Source: Achromobacter spanius
GTDB lineage: Bacteria; Pseudomonadota; Gammaproteobacteria; Burkholderiales; Burkholderiaceae_B
Direction of reading: 5' to 3'
Length of the DNA: 64,000 bases
Assembly: GCF_002812705.1 (NCBI RefSeq)
Contig: NZ_CP025030.1
Span: 1,984,001 to 2,048,000 of the forward strand
The notes under the pieces are model-generated. The model had not been told where the DNA came from. It searched no databases and was given only the letters and a program-made list of their open reading frames with translations. Of this stretch, positions 260-7,745 are shown in pieces (positions within the stretch are counted from its first letter, which is position 1; the number at the start of each line of letters is the position of its first letter). The position numbers and the translations under genes are program-made.

Positions 260-1039
260 CTAGCGCATCACCAGTCCGCCGTCCACGAACAGCACCTGCC
301 CGGTCATGAAGCCGCTCCAGTCTGACGCCAGGAACAGCACCGGGCCGGCTACGTCCTCGGGCCGGGCGATGCGGCGAAGCGGCGTCGCGGCAATCAAGGC
401 ATCGCGGAACGACTCCTGGGTGCCGCCGCTGGCTTCGGTGGGGTAGACCAGGCCGGGCGCCACGCAATTGACCCGGATGCCGTAGGGGCCCAGTTCCGCC
501 GCCAGGTTGCGGCTGAACGCCACCAGCGCGGCCTTGGCGGTGGTGTAGTCGTGGTACGGCACGACGGGGTGCTCGACCAGGTTGCTGGCGATGTTGACGA
601 TGCAGCCCTGGGCGCGCTGCTTGAAATGCGGCAGCGCGGCGTGGCAGACGTTGAAGGCGGCGCCCACCGAGCCATCGAACTGCGACTGGTAGTGCTGCCA
701 CGACAGGGCGTCGAACGCGGTCCGCTGGCGGGGGTCGAAAGCGTATGGCCGAAAGGCGTTGTTGACCACCACGTCCAGCCGGCCGGCGTCCTGCACGATG
801 CCGTCCACCATGGCGCGCACCGCGTCCGGCGAGCCCACGTCGGCCTGCACGGCCCAGGCGTCGCCGCCCGCCGCCTGGCATTGCGCCACCACGGCGTCGG
901 CCGCATCGGCATTGCTTAGATAGTTGACGACCACCGTTGCGCCTTCGCGCGCGAAACCGCGCGCGATCTCGGCACCGATGCCTCGGCTGGCGCCCGTTAC
1001 CAGCACGATCTTGCCTGCGAATTTCTTTGGGGTGTCCAT
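260..1039 (-). CDS. Short-chain dehydrogenase/reductase (SDR), last gene of the TPP-riboswitch operon
   Basis: A 259-residue classical SDR. It has the Rossmann glycine motif TGASRGIG (residues 15-22), a catalytic Ser152 and the Tyr165-x3-Lys169 pair (YTTAK). The usual NNAG motif is NNAF (93-96). It ends with the typical GQVLFVDGG segment. Such enzymes interconvert aldehydes or ketones and alcohols with NAD(P)H. It begins one base after the stop of the substrate-binding-protein gene, so it is part of the same transcript. In this setting I infer that it reduces the aldehyde made by the LuxC-like enzyme to an alcohol, but the sequence alone would equally fit a 3-oxoacyl-ACP-reductase-like role. 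Confidence 0.88.
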   Translation of the reverse strand: MDTPKKFAGKIVLVTGASRGIGAEIARGFAREGATVVVNYLSNADAADAVVAQCQAAGGDAWAVQADVGSPDAVRAMVDGIVQDAGRLDVVVNNAFRPYAFDPRQRTAFDALSWQHYQSQFDGSVGAAFNVCHAALPHFKQRAQGCIVNIASNLVEHPVVPYHDYTTAKAALVAFSRNLAAELGPYGIRVNCVAPGLVYPTEASGGTQESFRDALIAATPLRRIARPEDVAGPVLFLASDWSGFMTGQVLFVDGGLVMR

Positions 1040-1040
1040 G

Positions 1041-2072
1041 TCAGTCTCCCGGCAGCAGGCCGGTGTCGACCACGGCTGCGATGTCGATGGGCTTGTCGAT
1101 CAGGCCCAGCGCCCGGTAGGCGTCGGCGGCCTTTTGCAGCGAGTCCAGATCGAACGTGCCCAGCGGCCGGCCAACGGCGGTCGAGGCCGCGTTGCGCAGC
1201 CGGATCACCTCCAGGCTGATGGCGCGGTCGGTGCCGTCAATGGCGCGCTTGCCGGCCAGGCTGGCGGCTTCTTCCGGCTGGGCGATCATCCACGCGGCGC
1301 TGTCGCGATACGCCTTCAAAAACGCCCGCAGCAGCGGCTGCTTTTGTTGGTACACCGCTTCGCGCACCACGAAGAGGTCGCTGGACACGTTGAGCGTGTC
1401 GCGCACTTCCATGACGTTGACCTCGCCCAGGCCGCGCCGCCGCCCCACGAGCAAGCCGGTGTCGGTGGCGGCCGTGGCGTCCACCTGGCCTTGCAGTAGC
1501 GGCGCGAAGTTCAGCACGCCGGTCACCACGATTTCCACATCGGCTTCGGTCAGGCCCGCCTGATGCAGCATCACCAACAGGTTCTGACGGGTGCCGCTGG
1601 CCAGGCTGTAGACGCCGATGCGCTTGCCTTTCAGGTCGGCGGGGCGCGTGATGTTGGCCGACTTCAGCGACACCACGTTGAACACGTTCTGCGGATAGAT
1701 GTCGTAGATGGCGCGCAGCTTCTCGCCCTTGTCCAAGGCCATGAAGAACGAACCGGGGTCGGTGAAGGCCACGTCGGCCTGGCCGCTGAGTATGTTGCGG
1801 ATGGCGTCGCCGCCGCCCGCGCCGGGCAGGTAAACCAGTTCCACGCCCTGCGCCTTGAAGAAGCCCTTGTCGGGTTCGGCCAGCAGGTTGGTGATTTCGC
1901 TGATGGGTTTGCTCCAGCCGGCCAGGGTGACCTTGCCGGATGCGGCGTTCTGGGCGCCCTGGGCGCGAGCGGCTAGCGGCGCCAGTGACACGGCGGCAAG
2001 GCTTGCGGCGGCCGTCAACAGGGCGCGGCGGGTCGGATGGGGAGGCATGGAAGGGGTCTCGAAGATGGTCAT
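1041..2072 (-). CDS. ABC transporter substrate-binding protein, NMT1/THI5-like (ThiY-like)
   Basis: 343 residues. An N-terminal signal with a twin-arginine-like TRRALLT (14-20) and a cleavage site near ARA-QG (37/38) marks it as periplasmic. The mature part has the NMT1/THI5 and sulfonate-binding-protein pattern (GWSKPISEITN, GGGDAIRNILSGQADVAF, LKGKRIGVYSLASGTR). These receptors bind thiamine pyrimidine precursors, taurine, sulfonates or nitrate. The TPP riboswitch at the head of the operon favours a thiamine-related ligand. The ATG at 2072 is preferred over an internal ATG (2048) because it forms a 4-bp ATGA overlap with the permease stop. The CCCFC motif of true HMP synthases is absent, as expected for a receptor. 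Confidence 0.85.
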   Translation of the reverse strand: MTIFETPSMPPHPTRRALLTAAASLAAVSLAPLAARAQGAQNAASGKVTLAGWSKPISEITNLLAEPDKGFFKAQGVELVYLPGAGGGDAIRNILSGQADVAFTDPGSFFMALDKGEKLRAIYDIYPQNVFNVVSLKSANITRPADLKGKRIGVYSLASGTRQNLLVMLHQAGLTEADVEIVVTGVLNFAPLLQGQVDATAATDTGLLVGRRRGLGEVNVMEVRDTLNVSSDLFVVREAVYQQKQPLLRAFLKAYRDSAAWMIAQPEEAASLAGKRAIDGTDRAISLEVIRLRNAASTAVGRPLGTFDLDSLQKAADAYRALGLIDKPIDIAAVVDTGLLPGD

Positions 2073-2920
2073 GATTGATCGGCATAGGGGCGCAGCAGGC
2101 GCCGTTCCAGCAGCAGCGTGGCCTGATAGCCCAGCAGCCCGATGACGGCGATGGCGGTCAGCGCGGCGAACATCAGGGGCGTGTCCATCATGCCTTGCGC
2201 GGCGATGATGACCGCGCCCAGCCCCCGGCTGGCGCCAATGAATTCGCCCACCACGGCGCCCACCAGCGCCAGCACCAGCGCCACGCGCAGCCCGGCCAGA
2301 ATGCCGGGCAGGCCGGCGGGCAGCTTCAGTCGCAACAAGGTCTGCGTGCGTGACGCGCCCAGCATGCGGAACAGTTGCAGCCGGTTCGGGTCGACCTGCC
2401 GCAGGGCGGTCAGGGTGTTCTCCATCAAGGGGAAAAAGCAGATCAGCGCCGTCATGACCACGGTGGGCGCCATGCCGAAGCCGAACCACAGCACGAACAG
2501 CGGCGCGAGCGCCAGCTTGGGGACCACCTGGCTGACGATGACATAGGGCTTGAGCACGCGGTCCAGCAAGGCGGATTCCGCCAGCGCCACGCCGATGCCC
2601 AGCCCCGCCGCGCCGCCGATCGCCAGGCCCAGCAGCATCTCGGCAAGCGTTGCGCCGATGTGGGGCCAGAGGTAGCCGGTGGCAAGACTGATCCACAACA
2701 TCTTCGCCACGGCCGAGGGGGCGGGCAGCACCAGTGCCGATATCCCCACCTGCCGCACGGTGATTTCCCAGACGGCCAGCAGCAAGACCAGCAGCGCCAG
2801 GGCAAGCAGGCGGGGCTTGATCGTGGCGTGGGGGGCGGCCTGGGGGATGGCGGGGTCGGCGGCTTCAGCGGCGGCCTTATTGGCGGCTTGGGTCGCCGCT
2901 TTGATGGCGGTCGGCTTCAT
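2069..2920 (-). CDS. ABC transporter permease, SsuC/TauC/ThiX type
   Basis: 283 residues. An unusually long Ala/Lys-rich cytoplasmic N-terminus (about 36 residues) precedes roughly six hydrophobic segments, beginning with LLALALLVLLLAVWEI. The conserved EAA-type cytoplasmic loop is visible as MLGASRTQTLLRLKLPAGLP, the contact point with the ATPase. This is a BPD-type importer inner-membrane subunit. The start ATG at 2920 overlaps the ATPase stop by ATGA, and its own stop overlaps the start of the binding-protein gene the same way, so all three subunits are translationally coupled. The riboswitch suggests transport of a thiamine precursor or breakdown product; the substrate is not shown by the sequence. 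Confidence 0.88.
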   Translation of the reverse strand: MKPTAIKAATQAANKAAAEAADPAIPQAAPHATIKPRLLALALLVLLLAVWEITVRQVGISALVLPAPSAVAKMLWISLATGYLWPHIGATLAEMLLGLAIGGAAGLGIGVALAESALLDRVLKPYVIVSQVVPKLALAPLFVLWFGFGMAPTVVMTALICFFPLMENTLTALRQVDPNRLQLFRMLGASRTQTLLRLKLPAGLPGILAGLRVALVLALVGAVVGEFIGASRGLGAVIIAAQGMMDTPLMFAALTAIAVIGLLGYQATLLLERRLLRPYADQS

Positions 2921-3681
2921 GGGCGCGCCCCGTTCATGAACGCAAATACTTGGGCGCAGGCGGCATTGAATGCCGCGCCATGGCGCATGGCTTGCGTGCG
3001 CGGCGCGGGCAGGTCCACGGGCAGGTCGGCCAGCATGCGGCCCTGATGCATGACAGTCACACGGTCGCCCAGGTACACCGCTTCGCTGATGTCGTGGGTG
3101 ACGAACAGCACGGTGGTGTTGCGCAGCCGGCACATGCGCAGCAGGTCGTCTTGCAGCTCGCCGCGCGTGATGGCGTCCAGCGCGGCGAAGGGTTCGTCCA
3201 GCAACAGCAAGGCCGGTTCAAGAATCAGCGCCCGTGCCAACGCCACGCGGCTTTGTTGGCCGCCGGATAGTTGGCGGGGATAGTGTTGGGCGTGGTCGGA
3301 AAGCCCCAGCATGGCGAGCAGACCGTGCGCGCGTTCCAGGTCTTCCGGCAGCGGGCGGCGTTGCAGCGACACGGGCAGCAGCACGTTATCGATCACGCGT
3401 TGCCATTCCAGCAGCGTGGGCGCTTGAAACACATAACCCAGTTGCGGGCCGGGCGCGGCGGGCGTGCCGTCTTGCAGCACGACGCGGCCGGATTGCGGGT
3501 TGAGCAGGCCGGCGGCAAGTTTCAGCAGCGTCGTCTTGCCGCAGCCGCTGCGGCCAACCAGGCAATGAAAGCCGCCGGCTTGCAGGCGCCAGTCGATGCC
3601 GTTCACGATGGGCGCGCGGCCGGGGTAGGTGTAGACCGCCCCTTCGATGTGAAGAAAGGGCCGGGACGGGTCGGCAATCAT
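2917..3681 (-). CDS. ABC transporter ATPase, SsuB/TauB/ThiZ type
   Basis: 254 residues with all nucleotide-binding motifs intact: Walker A GRSGCGKTT (about 43-51), Q-loop near YVFQAPTLLEW, signature LSGGQQSRVALARAL, Walker B LLLLDEPFAALD and H-loop FVTHD. The sequence style is that of nitrate/sulfonate/taurine importers, the branch that also contains ThiZ. It energises the permease encoded next to it. It overlaps the upstream LuxC-like gene by ATGA (3678-3681) and the downstream permease gene by ATGA, which ties the importer to the LuxC/LuxE enzymes at the translational level. Confidence 0.92.
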   Translation of the reverse strand: MIADPSRPFLHIEGAVYTYPGRAPIVNGIDWRLQAGGFHCLVGRSGCGKTTLLKLAAGLLNPQSGRVVLQDGTPAAPGPQLGYVFQAPTLLEWQRVIDNVLLPVSLQRRPLPEDLERAHGLLAMLGLSDHAQHYPRQLSGGQQSRVALARALILEPALLLLDEPFAALDAITRGELQDDLLRMCRLRNTTVLFVTHDISEAVYLGDRVTVMHQGRMLADLPVDLPAPRTQAMRHGAAFNAACAQVFAFMNGARP

Positions 3682-5138
3682 GGTTCGTACGACGCGTAAG
3701 GGTCGGCGGCAGTTTCGGCGGACTGTTCGATTTCCGTCATGCGAACCAGATCCAGCAGGTTGAAGCGGCCGTCGTGATGCCAGCCAGCTTCGGGCACGCT
3801 CATCGCGCCGATGGCGCTGATGCGGGTGACGCCCGCCGCGCCCAGTTGGTCGGCCAGACGGTAGAGTTCTTCGGGCGTGGCCGCCACGCCCGCCGTTTGC
3901 AGATAGCGGCTGTGCGCGGCCACGAACGGCGCCACGTCATCCAGCGTGTCGATGCCGGCCACCACGATGCTGCGTTGCAAGGCCGTGGGCGCAAGCGGCG
4001 CGGCGGCATCGGTGTACGAGACGCTCCATGCCGCGTCGGGGTCGCCGATCAGCGCATCGGCGCCGCCATCCGGCAACTGCCATTCGATGCTCTGCCGCCA
4101 CTTCGCAATCGCGGCGGACTCCGCCAGGTCCAGCGCGCGGCGCGGAAAGCGCTGTTGCAGATTCGAGAGCTCGCCTGCCAGATACCCGGCGAAGTCGCGC
4201 GGTGAAACCTGGCCGCCGCGCTGCACGTAGAAAACCTGCGGCGAATAACAACCCTGCTGGTCGTAACGCGCCACATCCCAGGCCGCGCGGCGCGCCAGGG
4301 CGGGCGCCTTCAGCGCATCCAACGCGGCGGCGCTGACCACGCCAAAGCCCAGCTTGTGCCCATGCGCAAGAAAGCGCGCCGTGACCGGCAGGCGGCGCTG
4401 GATGGCATGCAGTGCGTCATTGCCGCCGTAAGCCACCACCGTGTCCGCCTGCGCGTACAGCGCGGATGCATCTTCATCACCCGCGCCGCGCCACCAGACC
4501 ACGGCCAGGCAGTCGGCCAGCGGCGGGTGCACCTCGACCAGCAGGCGCGCGAACCAGCCGGCAAACAGCGGCTCGGCGCTGGGCAGCTTGCCGATATTGC
4601 CCGCCTTCACGAGCAACCCGCAAACCAGGCTCCATAACGCCAGCGCGGGCACGTTGCCCGCCCAGCTATGCACCAGCAATTGCGGGCCGTAGGCACGTAC
4701 CGCGCCGCCCTTGGGCGCAGCCTGAAAGCCGTCCAGCACCTTGGGGTTGGCGAAGTCCTCGGCCACAAAGCGGTGCAGTTGCGGCGCGCGGAACGTCTTG
4801 AATAAGCCGGTGAGACCCAGCCGCACCATCTGCGCGTCGTAGCCGCTGACAATCGGCAGCAGCGCGTCGGCTTGCCGGCGGTACGGGTCGCTGGGGTCCA
4901 GCAGTCGGGCGATGGCGCGGTCGATGACGTTGATGATTTCCGACACCGTCATCGTCTTCAAATGCTGCGCGCTGGCCTGTTGGACGCGCTGGGCCAGCGC
5001 CTGCATCTGCAAGGCGGTCACCACCGGCACGGCGACGTCCACGCGCTGGCCGTCCTGCTCGAAGGGCAGCGTCTGCCATTGGACGTCGGCCGAAGCCAGC
5101 CCCGGCAGATAGCCCGCTTCGATCCGTTGCACGTTCAT
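3678..5138 (-). CDS. LuxC-family acyl-CoA (fatty-acid) reductase
   Basis: 486 residues, the normal length for LuxC. LuxC proteins take an activated acyl group onto a cysteine and reduce it with NADPH to an aldehyde. The active-site motif DQQGCYSPQ is present (residues 293-301, nucleophile Cys297), as are the HSWAGNVPALALWSL region (157-171) and the TVVAYGG segment (233-239). No luxAB luciferase genes are present. The start at 5138 overlaps the LuxE-like stop by ATGA. Pairing with LuxE implies reduction of a free carboxylic acid. The position under a TPP riboswitch suggests the acid is related to thiamine rather than to a fatty acid; that is inference. Confidence 0.88.
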   Translation of the reverse strand: MNVQRIEAGYLPGLASADVQWQTLPFEQDGQRVDVAVPVVTALQMQALAQRVQQASAQHLKTMTVSEIINVIDRAIARLLDPSDPYRRQADALLPIVSGYDAQMVRLGLTGLFKTFRAPQLHRFVAEDFANPKVLDGFQAAPKGGAVRAYGPQLLVHSWAGNVPALALWSLVCGLLVKAGNIGKLPSAEPLFAGWFARLLVEVHPPLADCLAVVWWRGAGDEDASALYAQADTVVAYGGNDALHAIQRRLPVTARFLAHGHKLGFGVVSAAALDALKAPALARRAAWDVARYDQQGCYSPQVFYVQRGGQVSPRDFAGYLAGELSNLQQRFPRRALDLAESAAIAKWRQSIEWQLPDGGADALIGDPDAAWSVSYTDAAAPLAPTALQRSIVVAGIDTLDDVAPFVAAHSRYLQTAGVAATPEELYRLADQLGAAGVTRISAIGAMSVPEAGWHHDGRFNLLDLVRMTEIEQSAETAADPYASYEP

Positions 5139-6217
5139 GGCCGCGTGGACTGAATGAATTCTTCGACCGCCAGCGAGCAACCTTTGGCCTGTGCGCCCTC
5201 GGCGCGGCCCAGCAACAGGAAGCCGCCATCGGCGGGTTCGCCCACGTCTTCGGTGAGGATGGTGCTGACGGAATTGAAGTTGCCCAGGTCGCAATGCGCC
5301 AGGATGCCGCGTTCGCCAGCCGGCACCGTGCGCCCCGTGGCCGGGTCCACCAGGCGCGACCGAATCCAGTGCGGCCCCGATTTCACGGAAGGGACCGTGG
5401 CGTTGCCGTCGTCATAGAACTGGGTGCTGAGTTCGGTCATGCCGTACATGTTGATGCACAGCGCACGCGGCACGCCCAGCAGGTCCGATAGTTCGGAATA
5501 GAACGTGTCCAGCGGCAATTCGCGCGACTGACCCTTGTAGCCGCCGGTGTCCAGGATGCGGCTGCCCGGCGGCAGGCGGAATGTTCGGCCTGCCTTGCGC
5601 AGCGCATCGATCACATGCACGAAGCTGAAGCTGGCGCCCAGCAGGGCGTAGGGCGCGCCATCGCGCTCGGCGGCTTCCAGGCGGCGCCACAAGCCATCAA
5701 GATCAATGCCCTGCGGCGACATGAAATAGCGGCTGTCGTCGGTGCCAAACGCGGTCTTGGCCAGCGCCAGATAATGCGCCAGCGACGAATTCGGCATGGC
5801 GACTTCGTCCGGGAACAAGATGCCCATCGGCAAGCGCGGCGTGCCCCGCATGACGCGGGCGGCGAAGTTGCGCGTCATGGACAAGTCGTAGACGTCCAGG
5901 TGCGGATGAAAGTGGCGCCCGCGCATATCGGCGCGCGTCGTGCCGCTGGTCATGAAAACGCGTTCGTCGGGGCGGGCGGGTTCACAGCGCAGTTCCATCG
6001 CCTTGAAGGCGTCGATGGGCACGGCGGGAATATCGCTCCAGGTCTTCACATTGCGCACCGTGGCGCCTCGGCGCTGGCAGAAGCTGCGGTAGGCGGCGTT
6101 GGTGCCATACTGATACGCAAACAGCCGCAGCGCGAGCTGATCGAACTGCGCGTCGGTGCAGCCGTTCTGGGCAATGAATTCGAGGAGTTCCGCGACGGGC
6201 GGGGCGGCGTTGTTCAT
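5135..6217 (-). CDS. LuxE-family acyl-protein synthetase
   Basis: 360 residues, LuxE-like and part of the adenylate-forming superfamily. The AMP-binding core MTSGTTR is at 89-95, NMYGMTELS is further along, and the C-terminal GRAEGAQAKGCSL has a cysteine (Cys347) placed where LuxE proteins carry the acyl-accepting Cys. Known LuxE enzymes activate a carboxylic acid with ATP and hand the acyl group to LuxC. This is the first gene after the TPP riboswitch; 77 nt lie between the aptamer and the ATG. No strong Shine-Dalgarno is visible before the ATG, which fits translation controlled by the leader. The substrate is unknown. Confidence 0.87.
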   Translation of the reverse strand: MNNAAPPVAELLEFIAQNGCTDAQFDQLALRLFAYQYGTNAAYRSFCQRRGATVRNVKTWSDIPAVPIDAFKAMELRCEPARPDERVFMTSGTTRADMRGRHFHPHLDVYDLSMTRNFAARVMRGTPRLPMGILFPDEVAMPNSSLAHYLALAKTAFGTDDSRYFMSPQGIDLDGLWRRLEAAERDGAPYALLGASFSFVHVIDALRKAGRTFRLPPGSRILDTGGYKGQSRELPLDTFYSELSDLLGVPRALCINMYGMTELSTQFYDDGNATVPSVKSGPHWIRSRLVDPATGRTVPAGERGILAHCDLGNFNSVSTILTEDVGEPADGGFLLLGRAEGAQAKGCSLAVEEFIQSTRP

Positions 6218-6294
6218 GGGCGTTCGTTGATTCCAATACAGGGAAGCTCCGAAGCCCGCCCGCGCAAGCGGCGCAAAAGGCGCGGCAGGGCGAA

Positions 6295-6369
6295 TGCTCT
6301 TCTTACGCCGGCATGAACCGGGTCAAGTTCGCGGGTTTGATTCTCAGCACTGGCGTGCACCCCGGAGCA
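6295..6369 (-). promoter_or_regulatory. TPP riboswitch (THI element)
   Basis: Read on the minus strand the leader contains the THI-box pieces in order: P1 arm TGCTC (6369-6365), GGGGTGC (6363-6357), CTGAGA (6347-6342), ACCCG (6336-6332), GAACTTGA (6330-6323), then GGTTCATGCCGGCGTAAGA (6319-6301), closed by GAGCA (6299-6295) pairing with the first arm. CTGAGA and GCCGGCGTA are the diagnostic TPP-binding sequences. It controls the LuxE gene starting 77 nt downstream and presumably the whole coupled operon. High cell TPP should lower expression. The expression platform (6218-6294) is GC-rich without a clear U-run, suggesting control of translation. Confidence 0.94.
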
Positions 6370-6454
6370 GAGGCAATGTTAACCCGCTCTAGGGTTCGTC
6401 GCTTAGGTCGAATCCCTTCTGGCCGTCCAGTCGGAAGGCCGCGGGGTCATACCG

Positions 6455-7507: not shown

Positions 7508-7583
7508 TGGTGGCCTGGGGCGGAATCGAACCACCGACACAAGGATTTTCAATCCTCTGCTCTACCGACTGAGCTACCAGGCC
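7508..7583 (-). tRNA. tRNA-Phe (GAA)
   Basis: A 76-nt cloverleaf with encoded CCA (7508-7510). The acceptor stem begins GGCCTGG, the D-arm has AGCTCAGTCGGTAGAGC, and the anticodon stem GGATT/AATCC surrounds the GAA anticodon (7548-7550 on the plus strand reads TTC). The T-arm has GGTTCGATTCC. It is identical over its full length to the copy at 7670-7745. Confidence 0.95.
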
Positions 7584-7669: not shown

Positions 7670-7745
7670 TGGTGGCCTGGGGCGGAATCGAACCACCGAC
7701 ACAAGGATTTTCAATCCTCTGCTCTACCGACTGAGCTACCAGGCC
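7670..7745 (-). tRNA. tRNA-Phe (GAA), second copy
   Basis: Identical 76-nt sequence to 7508-7583, offset by exactly 162 bp, with encoded CCA at 7670-7672 and the anticodon complement at 7710-7712. Tandem identical copies point to gene duplication for dosage. Confidence 0.95.

Follow-up and report, generated by a model that had tools for sequence, protein, structure and literature searches.

The described systems closest to the locus reported here include two kinds. Salvage of the damaged thiamin pyrimidine N-formyl-4-amino-5-aminomethyl-2-methylpyrimidine (FAMP) uses the ThiXYZ importer with its receptor ThiY, the deformylase YlmB, TenA and ThiD, the last of which phosphorylates 4-amino-5-hydroxymethyl-2-methylpyrimidine (HMP), the pyrimidine of thiamin. 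Reduction of a carboxylic acid is carried out in bioluminescence by the fatty-acid reductase LuxC-LuxE, and presumably has a counterpart in griseoluteic acid synthesis, where EhpF (with EhpG) probably activates an aromatic carboxylate that is then reduced to a hydroxymethyl group. We analyzed a 64,000-nucleotide stretch of Achromobacter spanius (assembly GCF_002812705.1, contig NZ_CP025030.1, positions 1,984,001 to 2,048,000; hereafter the window) that carries an operon with a thiamin pyrophosphate (TPP) riboswitch, LuxE- and LuxC-like enzymes, an ATP-binding cassette (ABC) importer and a short-chain dehydrogenase/reductase (SDR). The original prediction for this locus was that, under TPP control, a carboxylated thiamin precursor is taken up and salvaged by reduction. 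Comparative evidence favors this reading, for which we infer the substrate and the reactions. Salvage of an acid by reduction is the likely function, and the operon probably imports an oxidized acid form of the thiamin pyrimidine and reduces it to the alcohol for vitamin B1 synthesis.

Linkage of the operon to the TPP riboswitch

The operon is genuine and widely conserved, and the riboswitch ties it firmly to thiamin. Gene calls, family models and the sequence bear out the predicted six-gene layout (Table 1): all genes lie on the minus strand, in the order LuxE, LuxC, ATPase, permease, receptor and SDR after the riboswitch, with ATGA overlaps read in the sequence at 5135-5138, 3678-3681, 2917-2920 and 2069-2072, and with one base (1040) between the receptor gene and the SDR start. 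The aptamer, first placed at 6295-6369, is a full-length match to the Rfam model at slightly wider bounds (gathering threshold 54.3 bits, E 7.8e-9).

Absence of the THI element from most orthologous operons, the outcome that the original prediction named as counting against it, was not seen; a TPP element accompanies LuxE at 79 of 80 related loci and at 15 of 15 examined plasmid loci. The related loci are the best 80 of at least 389 stretches encoding a LuxE relative in named genomes (64-93% identity) and represent the close end of the LuxE family. The one exception (L071) is cut off by the end of its contig 256 bases upstream of LuxE. The figure of 79 relies on an in-family covariance model and not on Rfam's own, which at its gathering threshold assigns 7 of 14 related loci to RF00059; the in-family model was built from 11 TPP elements, eight of them LuxE-linked, and seven of the 80 loci were in its training set. 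The lowest of the 79 elements scores 65.4 bits (E 3e-17). All six genes occur in the same order in 73 of 73 uncut loci, and the other seven stop at contig ends.

Covariation was assessed in an alignment of 85 rows, 80 of them distinct, that includes four weak matches and one TPP element unlinked to LuxE. In this alignment, which was fitted to the structure, 99.2% of helix cells form standard pairs and both sides have changed at 8 of 19 pairs; none of 500 shuffles reaches either value. A riboswitch for another ligand was considered and set aside. The P4 stem is CUU/AAG where the Rfam consensus is CCU/AGG, yet P4 is paired in 100% of cells and the aptamer structure thus looks intact. Neither a terminator nor a sigma-70-like promoter was found in the window leader, which is no more stable than shuffled sequences (z 0.41). 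Given the lack of a terminator, control in the window may be translational. In Priestia and L. plantarum, a terminator-like hairpin lies 3' of the aptamer, which fits transcriptional shut-off by TPP.

The linkage is seen in Burkholderiales and their kin, and also on plasmids across phyla. An independent LuxE search of plasmids yielded 27 records, of which 15 were examined: Azospirillum (5), Pantoea (5), Pseudomonas, Niallia, Priestia and two lactobacilli. A LuxC search picks out the same 27 (at least 310 bits and at least 36.8% identity, with other rows at 102 bits or less among the 45 of 53 records listed). A TPP element above gathering precedes LuxE or the first gene of its operon in 14 of the 15 loci, and the Priestia element, at 49.0 bits, falls short of that threshold (E 2.5e-8 over 1.1 kb). 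None of six control loci from other LuxC families has a TPP element at gathering within 4 kb on each side.

Gene content varies between these loci around a core of LuxE, LuxC and SDR, which is accompanied by an ABC/NMT1 importer, a nucleobase permease or no importer. Priestia and Azospirillum lipoferum have all six genes in the same order, and Pantoea has only LuxE-LuxC-SDR. A nucleobase:cation symporter (PF00860) replaces the ABC importer in Niallia and the two lactobacilli, with models TIGR03173 and TIGR00801 under and NF037981 over cut-off, and the Niallia operon adds ThiW (TIGR02359, 175 bits, cut-off 84). The importers swapped around the core therefore belong to classes that transport nucleobases or thiamin precursors. 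The Niallia plasmid (L159) has tandem TPP aptamers at 3697-3805 and 3884-3993 on the plus strand, followed by ThiW, the nucleobase-type permease, LuxE, LuxC and SDR. On the Pseudomonas silvicola plasmid (L158:6001-9270), behind a 63.8-bit TPP element, LuxE, LuxC and SDR are each matched by tblastn in two pieces with broken frames, and this copy looks decayed or badly sequenced.

Within Achromobacter, LuxC occurs in 14 of 43 genomes, so the operon is patchy and accessory there. In 13 of these 14 genomes, LuxC has a TPP match some 1.2 kb upstream (12 over cut-off); the other genome is 57% complete and has its TPP element and its LuxC gene on different contigs. LuxC proteins of Castellaniella (Alcaligenaceae) and Thauera (Zoogloeaceae) nest in the tree with those of Comamonas (100/100). 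Together with the plasmid copies, this nesting points to transfer of the operon between families. Monophyly of the TPP-linked LuxC sequences is weakly supported (65/43): they sit on long branches, and 62% of the bootstrap trees recover them as one group.

Table 1. Features of the TPP-riboswitch operon (window coordinates)
Feature	Position	Strand	Model match
TPP riboswitch aptamer (THI element), start of operon leader	6283-6374	minus	RF00059, 58.2 bits
LuxE-like adenylating / acyl-transfer enzyme, 360 aa	5135-6217	minus	PF04443, 61.2 bits
LuxC-like acyl-thioester reductase, 486 aa	3678-5138	minus	PF05893, 280.1 bits
ABC transporter ATP-binding subunit (NitT/TauT type)	2917-3681	minus	PF00005, 105.7 bits
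ABC transporter permease	2069-2920	minus	PF00528, 110.6 bits
Periplasmic receptor, NMT1/THI5-like, 343 aa	1041-2072	minus	PF09084, 171 bits
SDR, 259 aa	260-1039	minus	PF13561, 208.7 bits

The window genome consists of one contig of 6.43 Mb, and its closest LuxE loci are those of Achromobacter. Two further TPP matches occur in it. One, at 78.1 bits, precedes an SSS-type symporter (TIGR00813, 95 bits, under cut-off), and the other, at 41.5 bits and under cut-off, precedes thiC. Divergent to the symporter's TPP element is an SDR that matches PRK08642 at 436 bits (L001:612-1394, minus; symporter at L001:1501-3104, plus), followed by an apparent flavin monooxygenase; the operon SDR almost reaches the same PRK08642 model. 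Elsewhere in the window are two tRNA genes (7511-7583 and 7673-7745, minus strand, 70.2 bits each, 89 bases apart), both apparently tRNA-Phe from GAA in the anticodon loop.

Enzymes and importer

LuxE and LuxC pass their Pfam family models (gathering thresholds 24.9 and 21 bits, respectively), and the only significant Protein Data Bank (PDB) sequence match of the window LuxE is the LuxE of 7xc6. Cys347 of LuxE is present in 79 of 79 aligned sequences and matches the C-terminal cysteine of Photobacterium LuxE (KGCSL of 7xc6), which we take to be the acyl-accepting residue. Similarly, LuxC Cys297, found in 77 of 77, matches the QQ-x-C cysteine of 7xc6 LuxC (QQACF), presumably its active-site residue. 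The SDR has the Gly-rich motif and the Ser-Tyr-x3-Lys signature of classical SDRs, and all 70 aligned sequences have Tyr165, Lys169 and either Ser or Thr at position 152. By alignment, the catalytic residues of all three enzymes are intact. LuxE and LuxC fall far below the equivalog models for long-chain fatty-acid--protein ligase (NF052244, 62.9 vs 550 bits) and long-chain fatty-acyl-CoA reductase (NF052251, 100 vs 750 bits). The SDR scores 291.9 bits against an equivalog cut-off of 292 for the 3-oxoacyl-ACP reductase PRK08642 (NF006393).

All 25 ncbifam matches listed for the ATPase are under their cut-offs. The best ncbifam match of the receptor, SsuA_fam (TIGR01728), likewise remains below its subfamily cut-off (95.1 vs 163.5 bits). 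The predicted fold of the receptor is closest to FAMP-binding (3ix1, 18% identity) and thiamin-binding proteins.

Thiamin-pathway context and identity of the acid

Of the three acids that the original prediction left open, the pyrimidine carboxylate gained support and the thiazole and thiamine acetates are disfavored. We consider it fairly probable that the acid is HMP carboxylate (4-amino-2-methylpyrimidine-5-carboxylate) and that it is reduced to HMP. A pyrimidine is favored by the presence of thiD in the operon, by ThiC-less carriers that keep ThiG, by the absence of full-length ThiM from the 43 carriers searched outside Achromobacter, by the receptor fold and by the nucleobase-type permease that Niallia and two lactobacilli have where other loci have the ABC importer.

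The thiD gene lies between riboswitch and LuxE in 17 of the 80 loci, 14 of them titled Ramlibacter. Two of these genes were tested and score 314.5 and 308.7 bits on TIGR00097 (cut-off 205). In each of the 17 genomes the operon thiD is the strongest ThiD match (next at most 121.7 bits) and is therefore probably the main ThiD; LuxCE may have arrived behind a resident thiD.

ThiC is absent from 6 of 45 carriers, all six Ramlibacter. A search of the genus around R. montanisoli (60 genomes, incomplete drafts among them) showed that ThiC loss is unexpectedly common, with no ThiC match in 46 of 60. LuxE occurs in 33 of the 60, and ThiC is missing in 27 of these 33. ThiG is nevertheless found in 9 of 10 ThiC-less carriers checked, in one (G049) as contig-end pieces; the remaining genome (G056) has none. 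Such bacteria could make the thiazole but not HMP by the known route, and would need a pyrimidine supply, here one under TPP control. Beside the operon of R. paludis, thiO (243.5 bits, cut-off 250.8) and thiG lie behind a convergent TPP element.

Two observations from the genus weigh against this interpretation. LuxE is not significantly commoner without ThiC (27 of 46) than with it (6 of 14; p 0.36), and 19 ThiC-less genomes lack LuxE by the same search. Two genomes were not counted as LuxE-bearing, one with a 45-bit match to another family (G108) and one with a 49-aa frame at 39.6 bits that is probably a contig-end piece (G125). Two others (G113 and G119), with a high-scoring TPP element close to the end of a contig, may be carriers that the search overlooked.

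TPP elements scoring below 55 bits occur in 4 of 33 LuxE-bearing vs 17 of 27 LuxE-less genomes (p 8e-5), an exploratory comparison with a split chosen after the data were seen, hand-counted, ignoring kinship and leaving out one element that abuts a thiC fragment (G128). On this exploratory basis, LuxE and lower-scoring TPP elements tend toward mutual exclusion. We inspected 14 regions at such elements, 12 from LuxE-less genomes (11 also ThiC-less) and two from LuxE-bearing ones. They contain TonB receptors (8), CytX-like permeases (3), thiM-thiE (1) and an SSS-like symporter (1), and one was left unassigned; L137, L145 and L148 were model-checked, with CytX under cut-off. The TPP element directly precedes the apparent TonB-dependent receptors (L137, L138, L139, L141-L144 and L149). 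The sole receptor tested, that of L137, matches the siderophore-type model TIGR01783 at 300 bits, and the TPP control suggests a thiamin-related ligand.

We next weigh the other acids. Another acid, or another pyrimidine derivative, could feed thiamin synthesis by a different route, which we regard as improbable though deserving of weight. The chemistry is deduced from protein family, and the literature searched holds no report of HMP carboxylate for these organisms; an aldehyde-then-alcohol order, however, ends most simply at HMP, the substrate of ThiD.

Reduction of a whole-vitamin acid, such as thiamine acetic acid, to thiamine is unlikely. Its product would be the vitamin itself, and a thiamin pyrophosphokinase (TPK) domain was found in none of 45 genomes, in a search that did not include ThiK. 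The operon thiD, together with carriers that have lost ThiC while keeping ThiG, indicates that the pyrimidine half is what is required, and a nucleobase permease would be an improbable carrier.

Slightly less likely still is thiazole acetate, reduced to hydroxyethylthiazole (HET) for ThiM. The LuxE/LuxC/SDR chemistry would suit it equally, the Niallia operon includes the thiamin-precursor transporter ThiW, and ThiM exceeds the cut-off in 42 of 43 Achromobacter genomes, the window genome included. However, among 44 genomes of the 80 loci picked by title as isolates, a full-length ThiM was found only in one, an Achromobacter, and in none of the 43 from outside that genus. Twelve other carriers have partial matches; one (G047), at 27.8 bits, is just over cut-off and coincides with a PF08543 match. 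The operon has gained thiD and not thiM, the ThiG-retaining carriers would need pyrimidine and not thiazole, and three plasmid loci have the nucleobase-type permease in place of the ABC importer. Within Achromobacter, a TPP-controlled thiM is found in 18 of 29 LuxC-less vs 1 of 14 LuxC-bearing genomes (p 8e-4, from a manual comparison of positions). The controlling TPP element is a further, longer one (L097, L098 and L099, with the thiM of L097 model-checked).

An ordinary fatty-aldehyde or sulfonate-uptake operon with a TPP element by chance is largely contradicted and highly improbable: database labels ('long-chain fatty acid--CoA ligase' for LuxE, '3-oxoacyl-ACP reductase' for the SDR), the near-threshold SDR score and the SsuA_fam match speak for it, but LuxE, LuxC and receptor miss the relevant cut-offs widely, and TPP linkage at nearly all related loci and across phyla, with none in the controls, speaks against coincidence.

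We return to HMP carboxylate, for which we infer substrate, each reaction, direction and TPP switching as follows. When TPP is scarce, the riboswitch would permit expression of the operon, and the NMT1-type receptor and ABC importer would take up an oxidized pyrimidine, most likely HMP carboxylate. LuxE would convert the carboxylate and ATP to an adenylate, and its C-terminal cysteine would pass the acyl group to the active-site cysteine of LuxC. NAD(P)H-dependent reduction of the thioester by LuxC would then give the aldehyde, which the SDR would convert to HMP. ThiD, whose gene is part of the operon in Ramlibacter-type loci but lies at another site in other genomes, would phosphorylate HMP into thiamin synthesis. 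We give roughly even chances to the broader proposal that this is an undescribed branch of vitamin B1 metabolism, spread horizontally over Proteobacteria and Bacillota, that recycles HMP carboxylate via adenylation, thioester reduction and alcohol formation. In animals, 2-methyl-4-amino-5-pyrimidinecarboxylic acid is a thiamin catabolite.

Relation to known systems

In open-access literature (subscription papers lay outside the search), we found no description of LuxC or LuxE behind a TPP element, and searches for the proposed acids gave nothing on topic. The main text of a regulon survey contains no word beginning 'lux', and for Burkholderia and Ralstonia the survey reports that TPP-controlled transporters are absent (PMC3766115). 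Vitamin B1 and its breakdown products limit aquatic microbes, according to a study that measured B1, thiamin monophosphate (TMP), HMP, FAMP, 4-amino-5-aminomethyl-2-methylpyrimidine (AmMP), HET and cHET; the salvageable pyrimidine vitamers given there are HMP, AmMP and FAMP, and ThiXYZ is listed (PMC10881298). Acid salvage would make one more vitamer worth looking for and might account for the pyrimidine source of some ThiC-less bacteria. If our reading is correct, HMP carboxylate is an unrecognized environmental B1 vitamer on which some of these bacteria live.

Other TPP-controlled precursor uptake systems (CytX, SSS symporters, ThiW and TonB receptors) share with this operon a TPP-controlled importer, and such importer genes follow TPP elements in LuxE-less genomes of the Ramlibacter genus. 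They differ in serving import alone, with no acid-reducing enzymes. EhpF (3hgu, 3l2k) is an adenylating enzyme of about the size of LuxE and matches the LuxE model (3l2k, E 1.0e-6), although the sequence profile of LuxE itself gave no PDB match to EhpF. EhpF and EhpG belong to phenazine antibiotic synthesis (PMC3175449) and are unlike the operon in this respect.

The likeness to FAMP salvage is one of logic. Both systems have TPP-controlled, NMT1-type ABC import of a damaged pyrimidine and its conversion to HMP for ThiD, which is predicted here, and the fold of the window receptor is nearest that of FAMP-binding 3ix1. FAMP salvage proceeds by deformylation and hydrolysis, whereas we propose acid reduction by LuxE, LuxC and SDR. 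Neither a deformylase nor TenA is among the six genes of the window operon, and a by-eye survey of partial sequences from the 30 most widespread neighbor clusters, with no dedicated search, turned up nothing resembling either gene. With the LuxC-LuxE fatty-acid reductase of bioluminescence (7xc6, Photobacterium), the operon shares both enzyme families and the aligned catalytic cysteines. It differs in that its LuxE and LuxC lie far below the long-chain equivalog cut-offs, in lacking a luciferase gene and in having a thiamin riboswitch and an SDR. Carboxylic acid reduction of the LuxC/LuxE type, known chiefly from bioluminescence, would gain a second role, in cofactor metabolism.

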